This document shows positions 10,407-27,259 of a stretch of 64,000 bases of DNA, piece after piece. The stretch spans positions 1 to 64,000 of the forward strand of contig JAVVHA010000008.1 in NCBI GenBank assembly GCA_032249735.1, written 5' to 3'. Under the pieces are notes generated by a model. It was not told the origin of the DNA. It searched no databases and was given only the letters and a program-made list of their open reading frames with translations. A program made the position numbers and the translations under genes. Position 1 is the first letter of the stretch. The number at the start of each line of letters is the position of its first letter. The DNA comes from Dehalococcoidia bacterium (GTDB taxonomy: Bacteria > Chloroflexota > Dehalococcoidia > SM23-28-2 > HRBIN24).

Positions 10407-11756
10407 TCAAGGCTGTAGCATGAGGGCCAGGGCCGATACATCCTCCACCTCTTCCAAGTGCGATATAAGGGTCAGGGCCTCCTCCACCTTTCCCGGTGGT
10501 AGGTGGAAGCAGGCGCAATCGCGGAACTTGTCGGCCAGCTCCTGCCACGTGAGGGGCCGGCGGGGGTCGCCCTTAGGGATCTCCACCCTGGCCGAGAGAT
10601 GGCCACCACCCCTGGTCAAGATGGTCACGTCCGCCCACATAAGCAGGAGATCGCCCCCAGAGGAGGCTTCCTCCTCCACCTCTATCCGATCCATCAAGTG
10701 AGCCACTTGGGGGCGTGTCACGGCCTCATCGGTGAAGGTGGCCATGCCCACATGGCGGTCGAGGAGGGCAGCGGCCACGCAGTACTCCATGCTGAACTTC
10801 CCTTCCAGGCCCGTGTGTGGCCGCTCCCGCCGCAGGGGCATGAGGGTTCCGCGGTTCACCCTCACCTTCACCTGGGCTATGTCAGACGCCTCCACCTGAT
10901 GGGCCAGGCCCAGGGCGGCGTCTATGGCACGGTGGGTGGCATAGCAACATGGGTACCGCTTCTGGCCCAGGCCAGGCTGGACGATGTCGTAGGGTTGGCC
11001 CAGGGGCGGGAGCTGGGGCTCGGCCTCAACCCTTCCCCCCAAGAAGGCGTTCAGAAAGCCATCCGGCGCATCTAGGGCCCCCTCGGCAGCGGTGAAGCCT
11101 TGGAGAGCCAGCAGGGCAGCCTGAAGGCCATTACGGGCCGCCAGCCCCACGTGCAAAGGCTTGGTCATGGTCCCGAAGTTGGCACGCACGCCACATGCCA
11201 TAGAGGCAGCGATGCCCAGAGCCATCTGCGTCCTCGTCACGTCCAGGCCCAGAAGCGTGGCACAGGCCGCGGCCGCCCCCAGGGTGCCCAAGGTGGAGGT
11301 GGGGTGCCATCCCAGGGCATAGTGGCGGCCACCCATCACCGTCCCCACCTTGGCCTCCACTTCTATGCCCAGGACAAAGGCGAGGATAAGGGCCCGCCCG
11401 CTCACGCCTATCTCTTGGGCCAGGGCCAAGGCAGCAGGCAGGACAGGGGCGCTAGGATGCCCACGCATGGAGATGCTCACATCGTCGTAGTCCAAGGCGT
11501 GGGCGGACGTGCCATTGATAAAGGCCGCCTCCTGGGGCGCCAAAGATAGGGGCCACCCCAGCACCGATGCCTTACCAGGGGCGGGGTGCTCTTGGGCCAG
11601 TCGGGCCAGGATGGCAGGCCCCTCCTCACGGCACCCCGCCAGAGCCACCCCCAAGGTGTCCAGAATGGCCCGCTTGGCCTGGAGCACGGCCTCCGGCGGC
11701 AGGTCCTCGAAGCTGGTGGCCACCAGGAACTGGGCTAGCTGCTCGCCGATGCCCAT
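10407..11756 (-). CDS. MmgE/PrpD family protein
   Basis: A 449-residue member of the family that includes 2-methylcitrate dehydratase (PrpD), cis-aconitate decarboxylase and iminodisuccinate epimerase. Seen: KRAILDTLGVALAG near the start, NGTSAHALDYDD, GHPSAPVLPAALALAQ, GWHPTSTLGTLGAAAA, MTKPLHVGLAARNGLQAALLA, and the HRAIDAALGL helix of the second domain. Members outside the methylcitrate cycle often sit in CoA-degradation clusters with unknown substrates. No prpB or prpC is nearby, so a methylcitrate role is not supported; a dehydratase role in the operon is inferred. Confidence 0.88.
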   Translation of the reverse strand: MGIGEQLAQFLVATSFEDLPPEAVLQAKRAILDTLGVALAGCREEGPAILARLAQEHPAPGKASVLGWPLSLAPQEAAFINGTSAHALDYDDVSISMRGHPSAPVLPAALALAQEIGVSGRALILAFVLGIEVEAKVGTVMGGRHYALGWHPTSTLGTLGAAAACATLLGLDVTRTQMALGIAASMACGVRANFGTMTKPLHVGLAARNGLQAALLALQGFTAAEGALDAPDGFLNAFLGGRVEAEPQLPPLGQPYDIVQPGLGQKRYPCCYATHRAIDAALGLAHQVEASDIAQVKVRVNRGTLMPLRRERPHTGLEGKFSMEYCVAAALLDRHVGMATFTDEAVTRPQVAHLMDRIEVEEEASSGGDLLLMWADVTILTRGGGHLSARVEIPKGDPRRPLTWQELADKFRDCACFHLPPGKVEEALTLISHLEEVEDVSALALMLQP

Positions 11757-11762
11757 ACCTTC

Positions 11763-12971
11763 TCACCCCCTGGGAAGGCCCAGCCCTCTTATAGCGATGA
11801 TGTTGCGCTGGATCTCGGAGGTGCCGCCGGCGATGGTGGCAGCCACGGACCACAGATAGTTACGCACGAGGCGTCCCCGCAGAGGGGCCCAGCGGTTGGC
11901 AGCGGCATCAGCCCCCGCGCCACGGTGACGGTCGAGGAGACCAAAGAGCCCCATGGTCTTGAGGCCGGTGCGGGCTACCCTCTGAGCCAGCTCCGAGGCA
12001 TATAGCTTGGCTGTGGAGGCCTCGTAGTTGGGGACGATGCCCTTCGCTTGGAGGGTCACCACCCGGTAGCAGAGGAGGCGGGCCACCTCCGTCTCGATGG
12101 CCCGCTCAGCCAGCTCCCAGCGCACAGGCTCCGGCACCCCTCCCAGGGGACCCTTACGGTGACGCACCAACTCCAGGATGTCCTCCAGCAGGTTCTGCTG
12201 GGCCATGGCCGCCCCTATGGACGAGCGCTCGAAGTCCAACGTCTTGGTGGCGTAATACCAGCCCATGTTCTCCTCGCCCAGCAGGTCCTTCTTGGGCACC
12301 ACCACGTTGTCAAAAAACACCTGGTTGAAGCCTGGCACGCCGGCCATGTTATAAAGGGGCCGCACCGTGACCCCAGGCGATCTCATGTCCAGGAGGAAGT
12401 AGGAGATGCCCTTGTGCTTAGGGGCATCGGGGTCAGTGCGGGCCAGCAGGATCATGCGGTGGGCGAACTGGGCACCAGATGTCCAGATCTTCTGGCCATT
12501 GATGATGTAGTCATCGCCCCTTCGCTGGGCTCGTGTCTTGAGGCTGGCCAGGTCCGACCCCGCCTCGGGCTCCGAGAACCCCTGGCACCAGATGACCTCC
12601 CCCGAGAGGATGCCCGGCAGGTGTTCCTGCTTCTGCTCTTGCGAGCCGAAGAGGATGATGGTGGGGCCGGCATAGTTGACCCCTACGCCGCCGGGCCTGG
12701 GGGCACGGGCGCGGGCAAACTCCTCGTTGAGGATGAACTGTTGCATGACGGTGAGCCCGGCCCCGCCGTACTCCTTGGGCCAGTGGGGGGCGATCCAGCC
12801 TTTGCGGGCCAGCTTCTTGGTCCACTCCTTGAAAAATCCGTAGCGGTCGATGCCGTCCCAAAGCTCGTGCTCCTCGCCAGAGCGGCCAAAGCCCTTGGGG
12901 AGCTCCTGGGCCAAAAACTCGCGGACCTCTCGACGGAAGGCGGCGTCCTCTGGGGAATCCCGGAACTCCAA
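11763..12971 (-). CDS. acyl-CoA dehydrogenase
   Basis: FAD-dependent dehydrogenase of 402 residues: N-terminal helical domain with WIAPHWPKEYGGAGLT, FAD/substrate region CQGFSEPEAGSDLASLKT and NGQKIWTSGAQFA, and C-terminal AGGTSEIQRNIIAIRGLGLPRG. The MCAD-type catalytic Glu (YEGT) is replaced by AGGT. A Glu in LDFERS may serve instead, as on helix G of isovaleryl-CoA dehydrogenase; that is my inference. The start is a TTG at 12971, one base after the mutase stop, with GGGGGTG 7 nt upstream. Electrons would go to the ETF encoded divergently at 25442. Confidence 0.93.
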   Translation of the reverse strand: MEFRDSPEDAAFRREVREFLAQELPKGFGRSGEEHELWDGIDRYGFFKEWTKKLARKGWIAPHWPKEYGGAGLTVMQQFILNEEFARARAPRPGGVGVNYAGPTIILFGSQEQKQEHLPGILSGEVIWCQGFSEPEAGSDLASLKTRAQRRGDDYIINGQKIWTSGAQFAHRMILLARTDPDAPKHKGISYFLLDMRSPGVTVRPLYNMAGVPGFNQVFFDNVVVPKKDLLGEENMGWYYATKTLDFERSSIGAAMAQQNLLEDILELVRHRKGPLGGVPEPVRWELAERAIETEVARLLCYRVVTLQAKGIVPNYEASTAKLYASELAQRVARTGLKTMGLFGLLDRHRGAGADAAANRWAPLRGRLVRNYLWSVAATIAGGTSEIQRNIIAIRGLGLPRG

Positions 12972-12972
12972 T

Positions 12973-14697
12973 TCAGATCACCCCCTTGGGCTCCCAGACG
13001 CCGAAAACGTCGCGGAGCACATCGCAGATCTCGCCGATGGTGCAGTAGGCCTTAACGGCATCGATGAAGTAGGGGATGAGGTTCTCCTTCTCGTTCTTGG
13101 CCGCCTCGCGGATGGCCTTAAGGGCCATGTTGACGCGGGCCTGGTCCCGCTCCTCCTTTATCTTCTTGAGCTTGGCCTTCTGCCGCTCCTCGGCCGTCTC
13201 CAGCCGCTTAGGGTCGTAGGGGTGGGGCACCAGGCGTGGAGGTATCACCTCTATCTCGTTCTCGCCCGTGAACTTGTTGACCCCCACGATAACCCGCTCC
13301 CCTGTCTCCAGCTGCCGCTGCTGCTCATAGGCGCTGCGGGCGATCTCCCGCAGGGTGTAGCCCGTCTCGATGGCCTCCACCGCCCCCCCTATCTCATCCA
13401 CCTTGCGGATGACGTCCCAGATTTCTTCCTCCACCTGATCGGTGAGGGCCTCCACGAAGTAGGAACCGGCCAGGGGGTCTACCACCTCTCCCAACTTAGC
13501 CTCGAACCGCATGATGCGGGTGGCATCTAGGGTGAGCTGGCGCGCCTCATAGCTGTGGCCCAGGCCCAGGGGCTCGTCCCAGGGCACGCCGCCGGTACCG
13601 AACCCGGTGGCCAGATAGCTGGCGATGCCACCGATGACACCACGGATGAGGTTGTTGAGGGGCCGCTGGAGGGTATAGCAGCTGGGGCCCACAAAGATGG
13701 AGTCTCCCCCCCGCATGATCCAGGAGCGGGGGTTCTTGGCCCCAAACCGCTCCCTCATGATACGGGCCCAGATGCGGCGGTTGGCACGGGCACGGGCGAT
13801 CTCCCGCCAGAAGTCCATACCCCCGCCGAAGTCCAGGAAGGTGAAGCGGGGTATGAACTCGTCCACATCCAGGCCAGCATCCACCCCCAGCTGCACATAG
13901 GCTATGGCGTGGGCGAAGGTGAAACCTGAGGCCTGGACCTCCGTTGCCCCTGCCTCCCGCATGTGGTAGCCGCAGATGCTGATGACGTTCATCTCCGGGG
14001 CGTACTTGTGGCAGAAGGTAATGGTGTCGCGGATCATGCGCATGGAAGGCCTTGGGGGGAAGATGTAGGTGCCGCGGGCAGCGAACTCCTTAAGGATATC
14101 GTTCTGGGGGGTGCCGCGCAGCTTACTCCAGGGCACACCCTTCTTCTCGGCCAGGGCGAAGTACATGGCCAGGATGATGTTGCAAGGGGCGTTAATGGTG
14201 AAGTTGGAGGCCATACGATCCAGGGTGGTGATGCCATCGAAGGCCTCGTATAAGGTCTCGAAGTCGGCCAAGGTATCGATGGCCACCCCCACCCGCCCCA
14301 CCTCCCCCTCGGCCATGGGGTGGTCGGAGTCGTAGCCGCACTGGGTAGGGAGGTCGAAGGCCACGTTGGCCCCCCGCCGCCGCTCCTGTCGCCACAAATC
14401 ACGGGTGTCCTCGGCGGTGCCGTAGCCGGCATATACGCCCGCCGTGGGACGGACGCCCATGGCATCCCCCCCATATGCGGTGGCCATGAGGGGCACGGCA
14501 TAGGTGCCCCGCGTGAAGGGATACTCGCCGGGAAAGCCCAAACGCTCCATGTACCGCTTGGGCTTCACGTCCAGGGGGGTGTAAAGGCGGACAGGCGACC
14601 TCTCCAGCCCCAGCCGCTCTAGGTTGCGCCGGAGGGTGGTCTCCTCCCAGCGCTGGCGCTCCCTCTCCAGCTCATCCCTCTCGTCCCACTCACACAT
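12973..14697 (-). CDS. acyl-CoA mutase large subunit, methylmalonyl-CoA mutase type
   Basis: A 574-residue B12-dependent mutase catalytic subunit (TIM barrel) without the B12-binding domain, which is encoded separately just upstream. Seen: GVYAGYGTAEDT, AFDLPTQCGYDSDHP, TPQNDILKEFAARGTYIFPP and the C-terminal helices. The Tyr of VYAGYG and the Arg of AARGTY fall where methylmalonyl-CoA mutase has its carboxylate-binding Tyr89 and Arg207, and Ala occupies the position that is Asp in 2-hydroxyisobutyryl-CoA mutase. I infer a methylmalonyl- or similar dicarboxyl-CoA mutase. ATG at 14697 follows GGAGGAGGTG; a longer frame to 14775 lacks a ribosome site. Confidence 0.9.
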   Translation of the reverse strand: MCEWDERDELERERQRWEETTLRRNLERLGLERSPVRLYTPLDVKPKRYMERLGFPGEYPFTRGTYAVPLMATAYGGDAMGVRPTAGVYAGYGTAEDTRDLWRQERRRGANVAFDLPTQCGYDSDHPMAEGEVGRVGVAIDTLADFETLYEAFDGITTLDRMASNFTINAPCNIILAMYFALAEKKGVPWSKLRGTPQNDILKEFAARGTYIFPPRPSMRMIRDTITFCHKYAPEMNVISICGYHMREAGATEVQASGFTFAHAIAYVQLGVDAGLDVDEFIPRFTFLDFGGGMDFWREIARARANRRIWARIMRERFGAKNPRSWIMRGGDSIFVGPSCYTLQRPLNNLIRGVIGGIASYLATGFGTGGVPWDEPLGLGHSYEARQLTLDATRIMRFEAKLGEVVDPLAGSYFVEALTDQVEEEIWDVIRKVDEIGGAVEAIETGYTLREIARSAYEQQRQLETGERVIVGVNKFTGENEIEVIPPRLVPHPYDPKRLETAEERQKAKLKKIKEERDQARVNMALKAIREAAKNEKENLIPYFIDAVKAYCTIGEICDVLRDVFGVWEPKGVI

Positions 14698-14731
14698 CTC
14701 TAAGCACCTCCTCCAAGGTTTGCTCCAATTA

Positions 14732-15163
14732 TCAGCCTTCCTCCTGGGCTTGAGAAGGGGCAGTCTGGGGGACATGGGCGCGGATGAACTCAGCTATCTG
14801 GCTAATGAGGGTTCCGGGGAGGAACACCTCGGCTATACCTTTCTCCTTCAGGTACGGGATGTCCTCTTTGGGGATGACGCCGCCCCCGATGACCAACACG
14901 TGGTGGAGGCCGCGCTTACGCAGCTCCTCTATCACGCGGGGGAAGAGGGCCTTGTGGGCCCCGGAAAGACAGGAGAGGCCCACCACGTCCACGTCCTCTT
15001 GCAAGGCCTCCTCCGCTATCTCCTCCGGTGAGCGGCGGATGCCGGAGTATATTACCTCGAAGCCGGCGTCACGCAGCCCTAAAGCCACCACCTTGGCCCC
15101 CCGGTCGTGGCCGTCCAGGCCGGGCTTGGCGATGAGGACGCGGATAGGCCGCTTTTGGGACAC
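14732..15163 (-). CDS. acyl-CoA mutase small subunit (B12-binding domain)
   Basis: A 143-residue cobalamin-binding Rossmann domain: [27 protein letters not shown] carries the DxHxxG motif whose His coordinates cobalt, followed by GLSCLSGAH and [12 protein letters not shown]. It pairs with the catalytic subunit 34 nt downstream to make a two-polypeptide mutase. The GTG at 15163 is preferred because AGGAGG lies 8 nt before it; a GTG at 15172 overlaps the ribosome site. Adenosylcobalamin could be supplied by cobT-cobS-cobU in this window. Confidence 0.93.
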
Positions 15164-15175
15164 AGGCACCACCTC

Positions 15176-17008
15176 CTACTCATAAATCCTCTCGCATTCC
15201 AGTAGGGCCACCGGGACCCCCGTGGCTCTCTCGATGTCCATATATGGGCGGCCGGTGAGGTCGCGGCGCCATGCCCCCAGGCCGAAGGGGGTGGAGGGGA
15301 TGACCACCAGGTCCGGCCGCGGGTTACCTCGCGCCAGGTAGTCGCGGATGTGGTCGATGAAGTCCTGCACCACTAGCAGGTCGCCTAGGATGATGTTGCC
15401 CCCGAAGTAGCGGTTCTCGGGAACCTCGATGTCCAAACGCACCATTGTGGCATCGATGAGGCCCACCTCCCGCAGGGCGTCCTCGAAATACGGGCGCACC
15501 AACCGAGAGGAGAGGAAGAGGACATGGCGGGCCCCCCGCTCCTGGATGAGGTCGCGTAGGGCCTCCACATAGCGGGTGCGGAACCCCATCCCCATGGTGA
15601 TGACGCCCAGATGGCGGTCGACATGGGGATCGTAGGGATAACCATGGTCTTGGGGGTCTATGGTCACCACCAGGTCTTTCTCTCCCCTTCGCACGACCAT
15701 GGGGAAGGGCTTGCCATGGGCCCTGGCCAGGGCCAGCAGGTCGCGGGCCTGGGGCCGGTTGCGCACAGCGGCGGCGCCCACAGCTACGATAAGGTCCCCT
15801 GGGGACAGGCCAGCGCGCTGAGCTGGGGAGTTGGGCACCAGGCCGATGATGCGGGCCTGGTTGCGCACACCCTCGAACCGCGTCTCCTCGTACATGGTGG
15901 GCATGGCCACAATGGGGGAGCGGACCTCTTGCCGCAACTTCCGCACCATGGTCACAATGGCCCCCCACACCTCCTCGTGGTCGAAGAGGGGGACGGAAGA
16001 GTAGTAGCGAGTGTATCCCGGTAGGTGCACCTGGAACAAATGAGGTTGGTATTGGTCGAAGTGAGAGATGGTCTCTTGCAGGTCCTCCAGCATGGGGGCA
16101 AGGCCGTCCTGGGGCCAGGGCACCAGGGCTATGGCATAGGGGATGCCGTATTCCTGCAGGAGACGGGGGGCGGCCAGCTGCACTTCAGGGCGCGCCCTGT
16201 GCACTAGGCGCGAAAGCCTATCGGGGCTAGCGGAGTGAAGGGAGAGGTAGATGTAAAGGGGGCCAAGGGCGGCCAGCTCCTTCACCATCTCCCTGGTGAG
16301 GGCCCGCCCCGACGTATAGATGCGGAAGGGCCGAAGGGTCTTCTGGCGTAACGCCTTGAGAACGGTGAGGATATGGGGGTGAACCAAGGCCTCCCTGATC
16401 TCCCCCCAGGCGGGGAAGAGGGCGCGGCCAGCCTCAGGGTCGAAGTAGCGCAAGCGGGTCATCATCTCGGCTAGCTCGTCGGCGGCTTTGCGCCGAGGGC
16501 TCACCAGCGCCAGGTCCGGCGGGTCCCCCTTCAGATAGCAGAAGGAGCAGTCCACGTTGCACCTAGTGGCGGCATAGCCGAAGACCTCCAGGGGGTCGCC
16601 AGCGGAGGGCATGAGCCAGTGGCGAGGGTCACGCAGGCGGAAGCCAGAGACGGACACCGGCCCCTCCTCCCCCTCCAGCTCTACCACCGAGAGGATGGCC
16701 GCCAGGGCCCGCTCGATGAGGACGATGCGCGGCTCGTAGAGGGCGGCGTTGCGGACGCTCTGCAGATTGGGGCGCTCCTGGCCATCTAGGCTGGGGCGCG
16801 GGCCGAAGATGCGAAACTCCTCCTCGGGGCGGGCCAGGAGACGGAACCCGTCTGCCTTCACCTCCTTCCCCCCGTAAGTGAGGACCACTACATCGAGGAG
16901 GGACTCCAGCAAGACGCGGATCATCTCCACAAGGGGGTCATGGTAGACAGGATCACGCCCGCCGGTGACCAAGGGATAGCGGAAGACGTAGTCACCCCCC
17001 TCGCTCAC
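15176..17008 (-). CDS. radical SAM protein with PDZ and DUF512-like domains
   Basis: A 610-residue protein of unusual order. Residues 1-140 are unrecognised. A radical SAM centre follows with Cys150, Cys154 and Cys157 (CNVDCSFC), barrel strands (IYTSGRAL, YIYLSLHS) to about 350, a PDZ-like domain (about 385-455; GLVPNSPAQRAGLSPGDLIVAV), and a C-terminal region with ENRYFGGNIILGDLLVVQD and VVIPSTPFGLG that resembles DUF512. Known DUF512 proteins, as I recall, have the PDZ first. Start is a GTG overlapping the upstream stop (GTGA). Function unknown. It sits inside the catabolic operon, directly before the B12 mutase, and could activate or repair a pathway enzyme or make a peptide-derived cofactor. 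Confidence 0.88.
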   Translation of the reverse strand: MSEGGDYVFRYPLVTGGRDPVYHDPLVEMIRVLLESLLDVVVLTYGGKEVKADGFRLLARPEEEFRIFGPRPSLDGQERPNLQSVRNAALYEPRIVLIERALAAILSVVELEGEEGPVSVSGFRLRDPRHWLMPSAGDPLEVFGYAATRCNVDCSFCYLKGDPPDLALVSPRRKAADELAEMMTRLRYFDPEAGRALFPAWGEIREALVHPHILTVLKALRQKTLRPFRIYTSGRALTREMVKELAALGPLYIYLSLHSASPDRLSRLVHRARPEVQLAAPRLLQEYGIPYAIALVPWPQDGLAPMLEDLQETISHFDQYQPHLFQVHLPGYTRYYSSVPLFDHEEVWGAIVTMVRKLRQEVRSPIVAMPTMYEETRFEGVRNQARIIGLVPNSPAQRAGLSPGDLIVAVGAAAVRNRPQARDLLALARAHGKPFPMVVRRGEKDLVVTIDPQDHGYPYDPHVDRHLGVITMGMGFRTRYVEALRDLIQERGARHVLFLSSRLVRPYFEDALREVGLIDATMVRLDIEVPENRYFGGNIILGDLLVVQDFIDHIRDYLARGNPRPDLVVIPSTPFGLGAWRRDLTGRPYMDIERATGVPVALLECERIYE

Positions 17009-18198
17009 CCTATCACCCCCTGGGACCGCAGCTCCTCGATGCGATCCCGCCCGTATCCTAGCACCTGGGTCAGTACCTCCTCCGTGTGCTGGCCCAGAGT
17101 TGGGGGAGATGTGAACTCATGTCGCCTCTGGTGGGAAGTGCCGGACATCTGCACCGGCACCCCAACCAGCCTTACCTCCCCACCCAAGACGTGCGGCACG
17201 GAGACCACCATCTGCGTCGCCTGCACCTGCGGGTCATCGATGGCCTCTTGCAGGTTGTTGACGGGGCCGCAAGGGATGTCCGCCTCCTGCAGGATGCGCA
17301 CCCACTCATGGGCGGGGCGGGTGCGAAAGGTGGCCGACAGCTCCTCTTCCAGGGCCTCCCGGTTCTGCAAGAGCCGATCGGGGCGGTTAAACCGCTCGTC
17401 CTCCACCAGCTCCGGCCTGCCGATGGCCTCACACACCTGGCGGAAGAGGAAGGGAGCGGCCAGGGCGAAATAACGACCATCGGAGCCCTGATAAACGTTG
17501 TAAGGGACCACCATCTGGTGCTTACATCCTATGGGCTCGGGCATGATGCCGGAGATGGTGTAGAGGGCTATCTCATAGGCCAGCTGGTACATCATGGCCT
17601 CAAGCAGGCTCGTCCCCACCTTCTGGCCCCTGCCTGTCTGCTGGCGACGGTAGAGGGCAGCGATGGTGGCGGCGGCGGCCACGAACCCCGCCCCCTGATC
17701 GGCCACCGCCACCCCGTTACGAGCCGGCGGTTGCCCAGGATGGCCAGTGATGGAGATGGCCCCACTTATGGCCTGCACCACCAGATCGTAGGCGGGCCGA
17801 TGACGGTACGGCCCCACGCTGCCATAGCCAGTTATGGATGTGCAGATGATGCGGGGGTTGATGGCTGATAGGCTCTCATAATCCACACCTAGCTTTTTGG
17901 TGACGCCCGGCCGGAAGTTGTCCATGACCACATCGCTCACCCGCACCAGGTCGTAGAACACCTCACGGCCCCGTGGGTGCTTCAGGTCCAAGGCCACGCT
18001 CTTCTTGTTACGGTTGACGCCGATGAAGTAGGCGTCCATCCCCCGATAGGAGAAGGGGCCTTGGATCTGACGGCGGGAGCCAGGACGTTCTATCTTGATG
18101 ACCTCTGCCCCCAGGTCAGCTAGGAGCATAGTGGCATAGGGTCCGGCCAGGGCCTGGGTCAGGTCCAGGACGCGCACACCTGCTAGAGCCTCCTCCAT
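17005..18198 (-). CDS. CaiB/BaiF family (class III) CoA-transferase
   Basis: A 397-residue transferase: VRVLDLTQALAGPYATMLLADLGAEVIKIE at the N-terminus, NRNKKSVALDLKHPRG, DVVMDNFRPGV, and VAVADQGAG, whose Asp is in the position of the catalytic Asp that forms the acyl anhydride in formyl-CoA transferase. It moves CoA between carboxylic acids, a plausible entry step for the operon substrate. ATG at 18198 after GGAGGTAGTCGCC. Its stop overlaps the start of the radical SAM gene. Confidence 0.93.
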   Translation of the reverse strand: MEEALAGVRVLDLTQALAGPYATMLLADLGAEVIKIERPGSRRQIQGPFSYRGMDAYFIGVNRNKKSVALDLKHPRGREVFYDLVRVSDVVMDNFRPGVTKKLGVDYESLSAINPRIICTSITGYGSVGPYRHRPAYDLVVQAISGAISITGHPGQPPARNGVAVADQGAGFVAAAATIAALYRRQQTGRGQKVGTSLLEAMMYQLAYEIALYTISGIMPEPIGCKHQMVVPYNVYQGSDGRYFALAAPFLFRQVCEAIGRPELVEDERFNRPDRLLQNREALEEELSATFRTRPAHEWVRILQEADIPCGPVNNLQEAIDDPQVQATQMVVSVPHVLGGEVRLVGVPVQMSGTSHQRRHEFTSPPTLGQHTEEVLTQVLGYGRDRIEELRSQGVIG

Positions 18199-18203
18199 GG
18201 CGA

Positions 18204-18968
18204 CTACCTCCCGCTGAACCGGGGCTTGCGCTTTTCGGCGAAGGCGGCCTGGGCCTCGCGGGCATCTTCGCTTTGGAAGGCCTGTACCATCAACTGACGG
18301 GCACGGGCCACATCCTCCGGCGAGAGGGGCCCCAAGGCCAGACGGTTGATGATGAACTTAGTGGCCTGCACAGCCAGGGGAGCGCACTCCTCGGCCAACT
18401 CCTGGGCCAGGGCCATCACCTCCTCCTCCAGCGACTCCTCAGGCTCCACCCGGTGGACGAGCCCCATCTGCAGGGCCTCCTGGGCGGTGAACTGGCGCCC
18501 TGTCAGGAACAGGGCTTTGGCCGCCGCCGGCCCTATGGTACGTACGAACATCTCATAACCATCGATGGGGTAGACGATGCCTAGGCGCACCGGGGGCATG
18601 CTGAAGCGGGCACTGGGAGAGGCGATGCGCAGGTCGCAGGCCACGGCCAAGTGCAGCCCAGCCCCGATGGCAAACCCCCTTATGGCAGCGATGACGGGAT
18701 AGGGGAACTCCTGCACCGCCTCCAGCCCATAGCGCAGAGGGTCGCCCCGCGTCTGACCAATGCGCCCGATGTCGTAGCCGGCGGAGAAGGCCTTGCCCCC
18801 CGCACCCCTGATGACCACCGCCCGCACCTCCCCCTCCTGGGCCCACTGCCGGAGCTTGTCCCCCATGGCGGTGAGCAGCTCCGGGCTGAGGGCGTTGAGA
18901 CGGTGGGGCCGGTTGATGGTGAGGATGGCCACCCGTCCCCTTCGCTCTTCCTCCAACTCCTCCCTCAT
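18204..18968 (-). CDS. enoyl-CoA hydratase/isomerase family protein
   Basis: Crotonase-fold protein of 254 residues: LTINRPHRLNALSPELL, GKAFSAGYDIGRIGQT (first oxyanion loop), FAIGAGLHLAVACDLRIA, GIVYPIDGYEMFVRTIG, and C-terminal FAEKRKPRFSGR. The catalytic Glu of classical hydratases (in the Gly-Gly-Glu/Cys-Glu loop) is not evident, so isomerase or hydrolase activity is as likely as hydration. Start ATG overlaps the stop of the amidohydrolase gene by 4 nt. Confidence 0.9.
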   Translation of the reverse strand: MREELEEERRGRVAILTINRPHRLNALSPELLTAMGDKLRQWAQEGEVRAVVIRGAGGKAFSAGYDIGRIGQTRGDPLRYGLEAVQEFPYPVIAAIRGFAIGAGLHLAVACDLRIASPSARFSMPPVRLGIVYPIDGYEMFVRTIGPAAAKALFLTGRQFTAQEALQMGLVHRVEPEESLEEEVMALAQELAEECAPLAVQATKFIINRLALGPLSPEDVARARQLMVQAFQSEDAREAQAAFAEKRKPRFSGR

Positions 18969-23257: not shown

Positions 23258-25290
23258 AGGTACCTCCCCACCATCTCCCCTTCCCAGATGGCGTACTCCA
23301 GGGTCCGAGGGGCGAGGCAATCGCCGATGCGATGCAGCTCCCGCACCTTCCCCTTTAGAGCGAAGTAGAGCTCGTCGTTGGGGCGACGACCGGTGATGAC
23401 CACCACCCCATGAGCCTCTAGCTGTTGCGTCTGCCCTGTCCACACGTGACGCACATGCACACTGGTTCCATCGATAGCCACCACCTCCTGGGACGTGAGG
23501 ATATGTACGCCCTTCAGCAGGAGGCGGGGGACAAGGAGCTGCAGCTCCATGGGGAGCAGGTGGTACCCCACGCTGGCCAGGGAGGTGACCACCGTCACTT
23601 GAAAGCCGCGGTCGGCCAGATACTCGGCGGTGCCCGCCGCCCGCCAGTGCCCGTCCTGGTCTATGACCACCACCCTCGGCCCCGGTGGGGTCTTGCCCGA
23701 AAGGACATCCCAAGCCGAGAGGACGTTGGGCTGGTCAGCCCCTGGGATGGGTTGCTGCTCCAGGCGCGAGGGGTAGAAGAAGGTGGGGACAGGCCGGCAG
23801 CCGGTGGCCACCACAATGGCGTCCCATTGCTGGGCCTGGGCCAGCACCTCCTCTGCAGTCACCCGATGGCCAGTGACCACCCGCACGCCCAACTTGCGCA
23901 CCTGCACCTCCAGGTGCTGGACGGCGTCCTCGATATCGGCACGGGTGGGCTGGCGGGCGGCCAGCCGCACCTGCCCGCCCAGGGCGTCCTGCTCCTCGAA
24001 GAGGGTGACGTTATGGCCCCGGCGGGCAGCTACCTCTGCCGCCTTGAGGCCGGCAGGACCTCCCCCCACCACCATCACTCGCTTGGGGGAGGGGGCGCGC
24101 TGCAAGGTGCCAATGCCCAGCCACTTCTCCCGCCCCGCCGCCGGATTGACGGCGCAGGCCAGGGGAAGGTTGTGCCACAGCCTTTGCACGCAGAAGAGGC
24201 AGCCAATGCAGCGGCGGATGTCATCCAGGCGTCCCTCCTGTGCCTTGCGGGGCAGCTCGGGGTCAGCAAGAAGAGCCCGCGTCATCCCCACCATGTCCGC
24301 CTGCCCCTGCTCCAAGACCCGCTCCGCCATCATCGGGTCGGTGATGCGCCCCACACAGAAGACAGGGACGTCCACCGCCTGCTTGACGGCCGCCGCCAAA
24401 TGGACGATGAACCCCGGGGGGAAGGCCATGGAGCCCACGATGACAGGGGCCACGCTCCAATATGCGCCGGCACTGACGCTGATCCAGTCCAGCTTGCCCG
24501 TGGCCGCCAGGACCTTGGCGATGGCCACCGTCTCCGACATGGTGAGCCCGCCGGGGGCGAACTCATCGCCGCTGATGCGCACCCCCACAGGGAAGTGGGG
24601 GCCCACCTCGGCCCGCACCGCGTCGATGACCTCCAGAGTCAGCCGACACCGATTCTCCAGGCTCCCTCCATAATCATCGGTGCGCTTGTTGCTTATGGGG
24701 CTCAAGAACTGCCCCAAGAGATAGCTGTGGGCAGCGTGCACCTCCACCCCGTCCAGCCCCCCAGCCTTGACGTGCCGGGCCGAGCGAACAAACCCCTCGA
24801 TGACCGCCTGGATATCCTCAGGCTCCATCTCCTTGGGCAGAAGATGGTAGAGCCCGTATTCCGCTAGCCCTGGGACGGAGGAGGGAGCCCACACCTGGTG
24901 GTAGTGGTCTATCTGGTCGCCCCTGGTGTGCATGCCCACATGGCATATCTGGGCGAAGATCTTGGTGCCCGTCCCCTGCGCATGCACCGCCTCGGCGATG
25001 CGCCGGTAGCGGGGGACGATCTCCTCCCTATAAGCGTGGGCCAAGTAGTGGATGCCCCCCGTGGAGGTGGGGTGCACCATCTGATACTCCATGATGAGTA
25101 GGCCAGCCCCCCCTTTGGCCCTCTCTACGTGGTAGTAAAGGTTCCGCTCTCCAGGCAGGGCATAAGACCCCTCCTCAGGCCCTGCTAGCACGTGGTCCTC
25201 AAAGGACTTGGCATGGGCCGTCTGCAAGATGCGGTTGGGCACCTCGATCTCACCGATGCGCAGGGGGGTGAACAGCCTGCGTAACATCAT
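23254..25290 (-). CDS. 2,4-dienoyl-CoA reductase-like NADH:flavin oxidoreductase (OYE + FeS + FAD)
   Basis: A 678-residue protein of FadH architecture. An OYE TIM barrel (LFTPLRIGEIEVPNRI, HAAHSYLLGQFLSP, RTDDYGGSLENRCRL) is followed by a 4Fe-4S cysteine set (CIGCLFC and a fourth Cys in LACAVNP), then an FAD/NADH-binding domain (VMVVGGGPAGLKAAEVA; VVVIDQDGHWRAAGTAEYLADRG). FadH reduces dienoyl-CoA; relatives reduce other enones or demethylate amines. It is the first gene of the 18-gene operon, with promoter TTGACC-N17-TAGCCT and a palindrome in the leader. ATG at 25290 (or 25287); the ribosome site is weak. Confidence 0.9.
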   Translation of the reverse strand: MMLRRLFTPLRIGEIEVPNRILQTAHAKSFEDHVLAGPEEGSYALPGERNLYYHVERAKGGAGLLIMEYQMVHPTSTGGIHYLAHAYREEIVPRYRRIAEAVHAQGTGTKIFAQICHVGMHTRGDQIDHYHQVWAPSSVPGLAEYGLYHLLPKEMEPEDIQAVIEGFVRSARHVKAGGLDGVEVHAAHSYLLGQFLSPISNKRTDDYGGSLENRCRLTLEVIDAVRAEVGPHFPVGVRISGDEFAPGGLTMSETVAIAKVLAATGKLDWISVSAGAYWSVAPVIVGSMAFPPGFIVHLAAAVKQAVDVPVFCVGRITDPMMAERVLEQGQADMVGMTRALLADPELPRKAQEGRLDDIRRCIGCLFCVQRLWHNLPLACAVNPAAGREKWLGIGTLQRAPSPKRVMVVGGGPAGLKAAEVAARRGHNVTLFEEQDALGGQVRLAARQPTRADIEDAVQHLEVQVRKLGVRVVTGHRVTAEEVLAQAQQWDAIVVATGCRPVPTFFYPSRLEQQPIPGADQPNVLSAWDVLSGKTPPGPRVVVIDQDGHWRAAGTAEYLADRGFQVTVVTSLASVGYHLLPMELQLLVPRLLLKGVHILTSQEVVAIDGTSVHVRHVWTGQTQQLEAHGVVVITGRRPNDELYFALKGKVRELHRIGDCLAPRTLEYAIWEGEMVGRYL

Positions 25291-25291
25291 C

Positions 25292-25307
25292 CGCTCACTT
25301 ATGAGCG
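25292..25307. promoter_or_regulatory. candidate operator palindrome in the operon leader
   Basis: CGCTCA-CTTA-TGAGCG is a perfect 6-bp inverted repeat with a 4-bp centre. It lies between the -10 element of the 18-gene operon and its first start codon, over the predicted transcription start near 25306. It could be a repressor site or a short hairpin at the 5' end of the mRNA. Confidence 0.45.
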
Positions 25308-25312
25308 CCAAT

Positions 25313-25341
25313 AGGCTACGCCACCTTGACGCGCAGGTCAA
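25313..25341 (-). promoter_or_regulatory. promoter of the 18-gene operon
   Basis: Minus strand TTGACC (25336-25341), 17-bp spacer, TAGCCT (25313-25318). Predicted start near 25306 gives a leader of about 16 nt. The same -10 hexamer TAGCCT follows TTGACA at 37643 and 62997. Confidence 0.55.
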
Positions 25342-25403
25342 TTGGGCAAAATCCCCACCTTTAGGTCGGGTTATGCCCTACAGATGGGGAAGGTGGAGTT
25401 CTC

Positions 25404-25431
25404 TTGACAGGGGCGGGGTGCTGGATATATT
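25404..25431 (+). promoter_or_regulatory. promoter of the ETF fusion gene
   Basis: TTGACA (25404-25409), 16-bp spacer, TATATT (25426-25431). Predicted start near 25438 is only a few bases before the GTG at 25442, so the message would be nearly leaderless, unless the GGGGGAGG at 25433-25440 is included. Confidence 0.6.
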
Positions 25432-25441
25432 CGGGGGAGGC

Positions 25442-27259
25442 GTGACGCTAGGAAACGAGGTGTGGTTCTGGCCGGAGGCCGAGGGACAGGGGCTAGCGGC
25501 GGTAGCCGCCTCCCTGGCCCAGGCCATGGGAGGAGCCAGCGTGGCCCTGGAGGTTGGGGTGGGCGGTGGCCCATGGCCTTGCACCAGGGCCTGCCAGTGG
25601 CCAGAGGTGGGCCTGACGGGCCCAGAGGTGGCCGCAGCCTTGGCCCACCTGATGGAGCAGGTAAGGCCACAGGCCCTATTGGTCCCTGCCTCCCCCTTGG
25701 GCGAGGAGGTGGCCGCCAGGGTGGCCGCCTCCTTGCGCCTGGGGCTATTGGCCCAGTGCTCCCGCCTAGAGGTGGGCCAGGCAGGCGAGCTACAGGCCCT
25801 GCGCCCGGCCTACGGCCGGCGGGCCTCCTGCCTGCTGTTGGGACCCCAAGGGGAGACGGTAGTGGCCTCCTTCTGCCTAGAGGCTCTGCGCGGCCGTGAG
25901 GCGGTAAGGGAAAGGGGGCCCACCACAACGATAAGAGGAGAGCCACCAGCACATGCCCCTTGCCCAGAAGTGGCTCAGGAGTGGCACCTGGGGCCAGGGG
26001 CCATGGAGGTAACAGAGGCCGATGTGGTGGTGGCGGGCGGGAGGGGAATGGGAGGCCCCGAGGGCTTCCGTCTGCTGTGGGAGCTGGCCTCCTACATCGG
26101 GGGGACGGTGGCCGCTTCCCGGCCGGCGGTGGACGCCGGGTGGGCGTCCAAGGACCGGCAGATAGGTAGCTCAGGGCACGCCATCGCCCCTCGCTTGTAT
26201 ATCGCTTGCGGCATATCAGGAGCCAGTCAACACCTGGTAGGGATGCAGGGGGCACAAGAGGTGGTGGCCATCAACAACGATCCTGGCGCTCCCATCTTCG
26301 CCCTAGCCCAACTGGGCCTAGTGGGGGATGCCCGGCAAGTCCTGGAGGCAGCCTTGACCAGGCTACGCGAGCGTCCCCTTCCTCCGTTTGGCAGCCCCCA
26401 TGTCCCCTCTGGCGGCCGCGGCGCTCAGGTGATGGTCTGCCTGGCCACAGGGCCTGATCCCGAGTCCCCCCTTGACTACAGACGGGTGGACAAGGCATCC
26501 CGTACCATAGGACCGGCTGACGCGGCTGCCTTGGCCCTGGGTGTCCGCCTCAAGGCCAACACCGGGAAGGTGTGGGCGGTCACCGTGGGAGAGGATGCAG
26601 GGGCGGAAGAGACCCTCCGCCTGGCCCTGGCTTTGGGGGCCGACGAAGCCCTCTGGGTCAGGGGCCTCTCCCGTGAGGCCGACGTCTTGGCCACCGCCCT
26701 CGCCCTGGCCCAGGTGGCCTACCGCCTCCAGGCCCAATTGGTGGTGTGCGGGGAGCGCTCCATCCAAGGGGAGACAGGTGCCGTGCCCTATCAGTTGTCC
26801 CAGCTCCTGGGCAGGCCGTGCATTGCCCACGTCCTAGAGGCGGCAGTGGACCATGGCCAGCTATGGGCGTTGCGGTGGCAGGCTGGAGGACGGAGAGCTT
26901 TGGTGCGCTGCGGCCTGCCGGCTGTTTTGGCCATAAGGGCAGGAGCCGCCACCCTCCCCTATCCCTCCCTGAGGGAGAGGATGCGGGTTGCCACTCGGCC
27001 CATCGCCCAGTGGTCCGTCCATGAGCTGGGGCTGGCCGAGGAGGGAGCGGGACGGGTGAAGGTGTTACGGCTGGGGCTCCCTAAGCCTATAAGCCTGGGC
27101 CCATACGTGGTAAAGGAATCGCCCTCTCCGTGGGAGCGGCTCCTTCCCTTATTGGGCGGAGGACGGCCAGCCGCCGGCCTGGTGACGGGACCGCCGGAAG
27201 CCCTGGCCCAACGCCTTCTGGACTTTTTGGCCCAGCGACATCTCCTGCCGGCGGGTTAA
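25442..27259 (+). CDS. fused electron-transfer flavoprotein, alpha then beta
   Basis: A single 605-residue chain joins both ETF subunits, which normally come from two genes. Residues 1-320 are ETF alpha, with the FAD signature GGRGMGGPEGF, GGTVAASRPAVDAGW, RQIGSSGHAIAPRLYIACGISGASQHLVGMQ and INNDPGAPIF. About residue 330 onward is ETF beta (DPESPLDYRRVDKASRTIGPADAAALALGVRL, VTVGEDAGAEETLRLALALGADEALWVRG, GERSIQGETGAVPYQLSQLLGRP). The frame is continuous without a stop. GTG at 25442 is chosen from the GGGGGAGG just before it and the alpha N-terminus NEVWFW. It would carry electrons from the acyl-CoA dehydrogenases; it is divergent from the operon. Confidence 0.92.
   Translation: MTLGNEVWFWPEAEGQGLAAVAASLAQAMGGASVALEVGVGGGPWPCTRACQWPEVGLTGPEVAAALAHLMEQVRPQALLVPASPLGEEVAARVAASLRLGLLAQCSRLEVGQAGELQALRPAYGRRASCLLLGPQGETVVASFCLEALRGREAVRERGPTTTIRGEPPAHAPCPEVAQEWHLGPGAMEVTEADVVVAGGRGMGGPEGFRLLWELASYIGGTVAASRPAVDAGWASKDRQIGSSGHAIAPRLYIACGISGASQHLVGMQGAQEVVAINNDPGAPIFALAQLGLVGDARQVLEAALTRLRERPLPPFGSPHVPSGGRGAQVMVCLATGPDPESPLDYRRVDKASRTIGPADAAALALGVRLKANTGKVWAVTVGEDAGAEETLRLALALGADEALWVRGLSREADVLATALALAQVAYRLQAQLVVCGERSIQGETGAVPYQLSQLLGRPCIAHVLEAAVDHGQLWALRWQAGGRRALVRCGLPAVLAIRAGAATLPYPSLRERMRVATRPIAQWSVHELGLAEEGAGRVKVLRLGLPKPISLGPYVVKESPSPWERLLPLLGGGRPAAGLVTGPPEALAQRLLDFLAQRHLLPAG

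Follow-up and report, generated by a model that had tools for sequence, protein, structure and literature searches.

A radical SAM protein with a rearranged DUF512-type domain order, predicted to depend on cobalamin, in an acyl-CoA mutase operon of a Dehalococcoidia bacterium

Introduction

The DUF512 domain was shown in 2024 by Wang et al. to be the cobalamin-binding domain of Mmp10-like radical SAM (rSAM) enzymes (PMC11659888). With SAM, four DUF512 proteins formed MeCbl together with some 5'-dA, and two structures, 9cg1 and 9cg2, are available (PMC11659888); DUF512 proteins and Mmp10 constitute a second structural class, the reactions of which were left open in a review (PMC13331322). More than 6000 DUF512 radical SAM proteins are without known substrate (PMC11659888), which the review also treats as an open question (PMC13331322).

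The protein described here is encoded in a stretch of 64,000 nucleotides from a Dehalococcoidia bacterium (contig JAVVHA010000008.1), hereafter called the window. With csDUF512 from Clostridium sporogenes (9cg1; PDZ-radical SAM-DUF512) it shares all three domains and the predicted cobalamin-contact positions; however, the PDZ of csDUF512 comes first and completes the barrel, whereas in the window protein it lies between the barrel and the cobalamin domain. Moreover, csDUF512 lacks the N-terminal units (N-units) described below, the window protein lacks the DDD motif, and the identity in the fold alignment is about 12%. The protein pfDUF512 from Pyrococcus furiosus (9cg2; 358 aa) consists of a radical SAM domain followed by a cobalamin domain and, unlike the window protein, has neither PDZ nor N-units. 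Mmp10 (the methyl-coenzyme M reductase arginine methylase, 7qbs), which serves a catabolic enzyme, has a cobalamin domain with this fold at its C-terminus, but is archaeal, MCR-linked and devoid of PDZ, and gave no direct sequence match in PDB profile searches. A search of the literature for the domain architecture of the window protein found nothing.

Results

The rSAM gene was located at positions 15176-17008 of the minus strand (the first-pass annotation had given no strand), as were its domains and the adjoining operon genes given below; it has a GTG start and encodes 610 aa, while no long ORF was present on the plus strand of the same interval. The radical SAM domain (residues ~140-372; 15893-16591) was recognized by Pfam Radical_SAM (PF04055; residues 148-295, 55.3 bits, cut-off 29.5) and by fold matches, placing the protein in this superfamily. 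Its CxxxCxxC cluster motif, CNVDCSFC (residues 150-157; 16538-16561), continues with Y158 and KGxPP, like that of the conventional Chloroflexota relatives of csDUF512; C150 and C154 were invariant in 15 aligned homologs, and C157 was kept in 14 of them. A PDZ domain (residues ~383-454; 15647-15862) was supported by Pfam PDZ_6 (PF17820; residues 390-441, 35.6 bits, cut-off 27) and by PDB profile matches. It is followed by a C-terminal DUF512-like, predicted cobalamin-binding domain (residues 455-610; 15179-15646), which scored 19.2 bits with Pfam DUF512 (PF04459; residues 475-557), under the gathering cut-off of 25. No NCBIfam family reached its cut-off, and all the maturase scores were far below theirs, setting the protein apart from radical SAM/SPASM peptide maturases.

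The radical SAM-PDZ-DUF512 order, which the first-pass annotation had singled out as unusual, is real: it is retained in the 15 homologs, down to 45% identity, so that an assembly artefact can be dismissed. Profile-profile alignments were made with the conventional PDZ-rSAM-DUF512 proteins of the same phylum, in which PDZ comes first; residues 386-472 (PDZ) aligned with their residues 13-85, 236-302 (radical SAM) with 146-212, and 491-603 (C-terminus) with 341-446. Judged by these alignments, the window protein has the components of the conventional ones in a rearranged order. Both groups have a similar cluster loop (CxxxCxFC[FY]xKGxPP), and the internal PDZ and missing DDD motif place the window protein outside the conventional group.

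The 140 N-terminal residues, previously described as unassigned, turned out to be a tandem duplication of a family-specific unit of ~55 aa (hhalign P 96.8, E 2e-10), with N-unit 1 at residues ~5-68 (16805-16996) and N-unit 2 at residues ~88-132 (16613-16747). The N-unit 1 profile independently picked up the second copy in six genomes, and in six related genomes N-unit 1 is a stand-alone ORF of ~85 aa directly upstream of the rSAM gene. No match to the units was obtained in Pfam or NCBIfam, and a profile search of 212 genomes located them in no other place than this rSAM family.

Although the DUF512 score was under the Pfam cut-off, the assignment was backed independently by the profile-profile match, by PDB profiles and by fold comparisons. 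The sequence profile of the C-terminal domain matched 9cg1 (E 0.0044), the sole other match having an E of 0.68. An AlphaFold model of the whole protein (pLDDT 73.9, pTM 0.73), a check proposed in the first-pass annotation, had 9cg2 (1.4e-8), 9cg1 (8.5e-8) and Mmp10 7qbs (2.5e-5) as its best Foldseek matches in the PDB. The C-terminal domain was also predicted separately (pLDDT 69.5, pTM 0.72), to exclude a match due to the radical SAM core alone, and its first and only match below 0.001 was again 9cg1, that is, csDUF512. The model shows a four-stranded fold C-terminal to the radical SAM core, an arrangement that would assign the protein to the second structural class.

The lower-axial L366 of csDUF512 falls on L544 in the PDB profile alignment, and T323, the position that contacts the benzimidazole base, falls on S500 in the profile-profile alignment with the conventional proteins. 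The presumptive base-contact position was Ser or Thr in 15/15 homologs, and the presumptive lower-axial position was Leu in 14/15, with one gap; L544/L545 were maintained in the family alignment, and the N-x-F-x-G-G-N motif was invariant or nearly so. The residue after the third Cys, expected between the cluster and the cobalamin, was Tyr (Y158) in 10 of the 15 homologs and Cys in the other five.

Homologs were 71% identical in the sister species and 44-54% identical in other Dehalococcoidia/Chloroflexota. Of 393 Dehalococcoidia genomes, 13 contained a full-length member in profile searches, and 400 genomes drawn from the phylum added no further one; other phyla were searched with patterns from one sequence. 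Conventional DUF512 proteins exceeded the cut-off in 60 of 151 genomes of the phylum, with 148-217 bits, whereas the window family reached 21-24 bits on PF04459 in the same search. On account of these scores, and with other phyla covered by single-sequence patterns, the window family is regarded as a separate, rare lineage. Two homologs deviate, one being broken into two ORFs and the other carrying Arg in place of the third cluster Cys (L028 2483-4434, L026 1424-3295), which may reflect sequencing errors or decay.

The coupling to both neighbors noted earlier was borne out: the gene for a CaiB-type CoA-transferase (17005-18198) overlaps the rSAM start by 4 bases (GTGA), and the gene for the B12-binding small subunit of an acyl-CoA mutase (MutS; 14732-15172, TIGR00640 180 bits) begins 3 bases past the rSAM stop. 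Beyond MutS lie the divergent mutase large subunit (MutL; 12973-14775, TIGR00641 528 bits), an acyl-CoA dehydrogenase (11763-12971) and a MmgE/PrpD family protein (10407-11756), while a crotonase-fold protein (18204-18968), a member of the subfamily linked to rSAM, stands before CaiB. Elsewhere in the window, a 683-aa ORF (25208-27259) with ETF_alpha (residues 268-347) and ETF (432-606) domains suggests a fused electron transfer flavoprotein.

Sixteen homologous loci were compared, the counts being lower bounds because some contigs stop inside the cluster. A crotonase of one subfamily adjoins the rSAM gene in at least 13 of the 16 loci, the mutase large subunit is nearby in at least 10, and genes for CaiB, MmgE/PrpD and decarboxylase components (mmdA, biotin carrier, OadB) appear repeatedly, in agreement with the catabolic setting and mutase link proposed in the first-pass annotation; LLM genes are not general companions, matches to them being confined to the window and the sister species. 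In family f24 the sodium-pumping decarboxylase genes mmdA/biotin carrier/OadB adjoin the rSAM gene, and locus L024 has an additional TRAP transporter and a FAD-binding protein.

The crotonase subfamily (> 397 bits) was present in 10 of the 13 rSAM-positive genomes and in 1 of 370 others (p 2e-16, in a test that ignores relatedness), and in that single genome the contig stops at the crotonase, where the rSAM gene would come next. The mutase subfamily was found in 12/13 rSAM-positive genomes versus 11/373 others, again ignoring relatedness; the twelfth (G329) is a contig-end fragment absent from the class-wide search list. The rSAM-linked crotonases formed one clade (97/94; few outgroups), whereas the rSAM-linked mutases were polyphyletic, so that their partnership with rSAM is not a strict one, and no mutase residues tracked the presence of rSAM. 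One genome (G043) has a cluster of rSAM and crotonase that contains no mutase, and two (G071, G286) have rSAM with neither gene nearby. Conversely, three loci (L108, L111, L113) contain mutase, CaiB, PrpD and mmdA without rSAM, and G004 and G012 have syntenic loci that lack rSAM and show no remnants of it.

Several of the genomes carry two or three copies of the divergent mutase subfamily, and locus L118 of G051 has three large-subunit genes for acyl-CoA mutase within 19 kb, one of them truncated by the end of the stretch. The rSAM-linked crotonase is tandemly duplicated in two species of one genus (L048 5508-7229 in G043, and L132 in G156), and the G048 cluster contains a 723-aa ORF without any Pfam match (L051 4172-6343).

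In the alignment, the window mutase keeps the equivalents of Tyr89 and Arg207 of methylmalonyl-CoA mutase, which suggests that its substrate carries a carboxylate. A 2-hydroxyisobutyryl-CoA mutase (HCM) was considered, since the closest PDB entry is 4r3u, but was rejected because the Tyr and Arg replace Ile90 and Gln208 of HCM. The best NCBIfam score of CaiB, below the cut-off, was for succinate-glutarate CoA-transferase. For the crotonase, an ordinary enoyl-CoA hydratase was rejected: the position of the hydratase Glu144 was not Glu in any of eight crotonases aligned, and the window protein has Ala at the equivalent of Glu164, where most relatives have Glu; the protein is thus probably not a hydratase. 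Its Tyr133 corresponds to Tyr140 of methylmalonyl-CoA decarboxylase, although the decarboxylase His66 is not kept, and it may have a decarboxylase role. Given the mutase Tyr/Arg pair, the dicarboxylate-type CaiB and the sodium-pumping decarboxylase genes, the simplest and most likely pathway would convert a substituted succinate into its CoA ester (CaiB), rearrange this to a malonyl-type ester (mutase), and then decarboxylate it to an acyl-CoA.

Discussion

Since DUF512 is a known cobalamin-binding domain, the rSAM protein is very likely B12-dependent, and at the level of enzyme class we are confident, from the profiles and the models, in assigning it to the cobalamin-dependent radical SAM enzymes with a new architecture. 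That the DUF512-like domain is a scaffold without cobalamin appears improbable; the Pfam score under the cut-off and the replacement of Y158 by Cys in one clade would fit, but the family hardly varies at the putative lower-axial Leu, at the presumptive base-contact Ser/Thr or in the N-x-F-x-G-G-N motif. What such an enzyme would act on is less certain. The reading that we tentatively favor, while giving it somewhat less than an even chance, is a class-2 (Mmp10/DUF512-type) enzyme with shuffled domains, which would act on another protein of the module rather than turn over substrate. In this mechanism the cluster would cleave SAM, SAM would methylate the bound cob(I)alamin, and the 5'-deoxyadenosyl radical would open a C-H bond, leading to a radical C-methylation of the kind put forward for csDUF512 and Mmp10; the partner, crotonase or B12 mutase, might be captured by the PDZ and the N-units. 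The rSAM protein would then mature or maintain a catabolic enzyme, as Mmp10 modifies MCR, instead of spending SAM on each substrate molecule. The PDZ and the duplicated family-specific N-unit, split off in six genomes, speak for this reading, while the polyphyly of the linked mutases, the lack of a mutase residue tracking rSAM, the rSAM genes of G043, G071 and G286 that lack a mutase or both partners nearby, the DUF512 score under the Pfam cut-off and the Cys at position 158 in 5/15 homologs speak against it. More broadly, service to the dicarboxylyl-CoA mutase/decarboxylase module in an accessory (modifying or reactivating) role seems more likely than a stoichiometric catabolic step.

Partner-protein modification is thus preferred over a pathway step, and a pathway step over upkeep of the mutase cofactor. 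As a pathway step, the rSAM enzyme would methylate, rearrange or open a dicarboxylic acid or its CoA ester, either ahead of the crotonase step or following it, which we consider rather unlikely, though a serious competitor. The crotonase subfamily tracks rSAM more closely than any other gene, and since modules without rSAM exist, the pair of rSAM and crotonase seems to be an addition that serves one particular substrate; on the other hand, the consumption of SAM is costly in catabolism, the PDZ and N-units suggest a protein partner, and we know of no catabolic flux enzyme among the cobalamin radical SAM enzymes of this class. A B12 radical SAM enzyme that goes beyond methylation does exist in OxsB (PMC11659888).

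Cofactor upkeep, in which a SAM-driven loader or re-adenosylase would turn the cob(II)alamin of the spent mutase back into AdoCbl in place of MeaB (methylmalonyl-CoA mutase-associated GTPase), is raised by a syntenic cluster in G012, a relative from the same taxonomic order, which reads crotonase-CaiB-MeaB-MutS-MutL against crotonase-CaiB-rSAM-MutS-MutL in the window, with MeaB (L120 1603-2604, TIGR00750 323 bits) between CaiB and the B12 subunit. The shared slot, a positional analogy only as the two proteins are unrelated, suggests that rSAM serves the mutase, whereas the crotonase itself is the partner indicated by the crotonase data. MeaB was local to five rSAM-free mutase loci, G012 included, and to 0/9 rSAM-linked loci, a contrast that was not significant (p 0.12). 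Crystals of pfDUF512 contained AdoCbl and 5'-dA above the cobalt, but AdoCbl was found in csDUF512 only upon co-expression with btu genes (PMC11659888). Genome G000 carries MeaB and a PduO adenosyltransferase elsewhere, and AdoCbl supply was therefore discarded as a necessity for rSAM. A search of the literature for rSAM with MeaB found nothing. Overall we judge such a role improbable, and its specific form, regeneration of AdoCbl in place on the mutase by joining the SAM-derived 5'-deoxyadenosyl radical to cob(II)alamin, slightly more so; if true, a radical SAM enzyme would stand in for both the MeaB chaperone and the ATP-dependent adenosyltransferase. Glycyl-radical activation is excluded as far as the genome is complete, given that PF01228 had no match in G000 (99% complete).

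In this clade a new domain order goes together with a gene context that is tight and repeated, so that candidate partners can be named for the DUF512 family, namely the crotonase, the B12 mutase and the decarboxylase, the first concrete ones to test for DUF512 radical SAM proteins. Two B12 chemistries, radical SAM and AdoCbl mutase, within one operon would be rare.

In a distant relative (G360, L054 1-2394), the end of a DUF512-like protein is followed by a HxsC-type radical SAM gene and then by a stand-alone N-unit of 86 aa; this operon of two radical SAM genes and a small protein is reminiscent of peptide-modifying systems.
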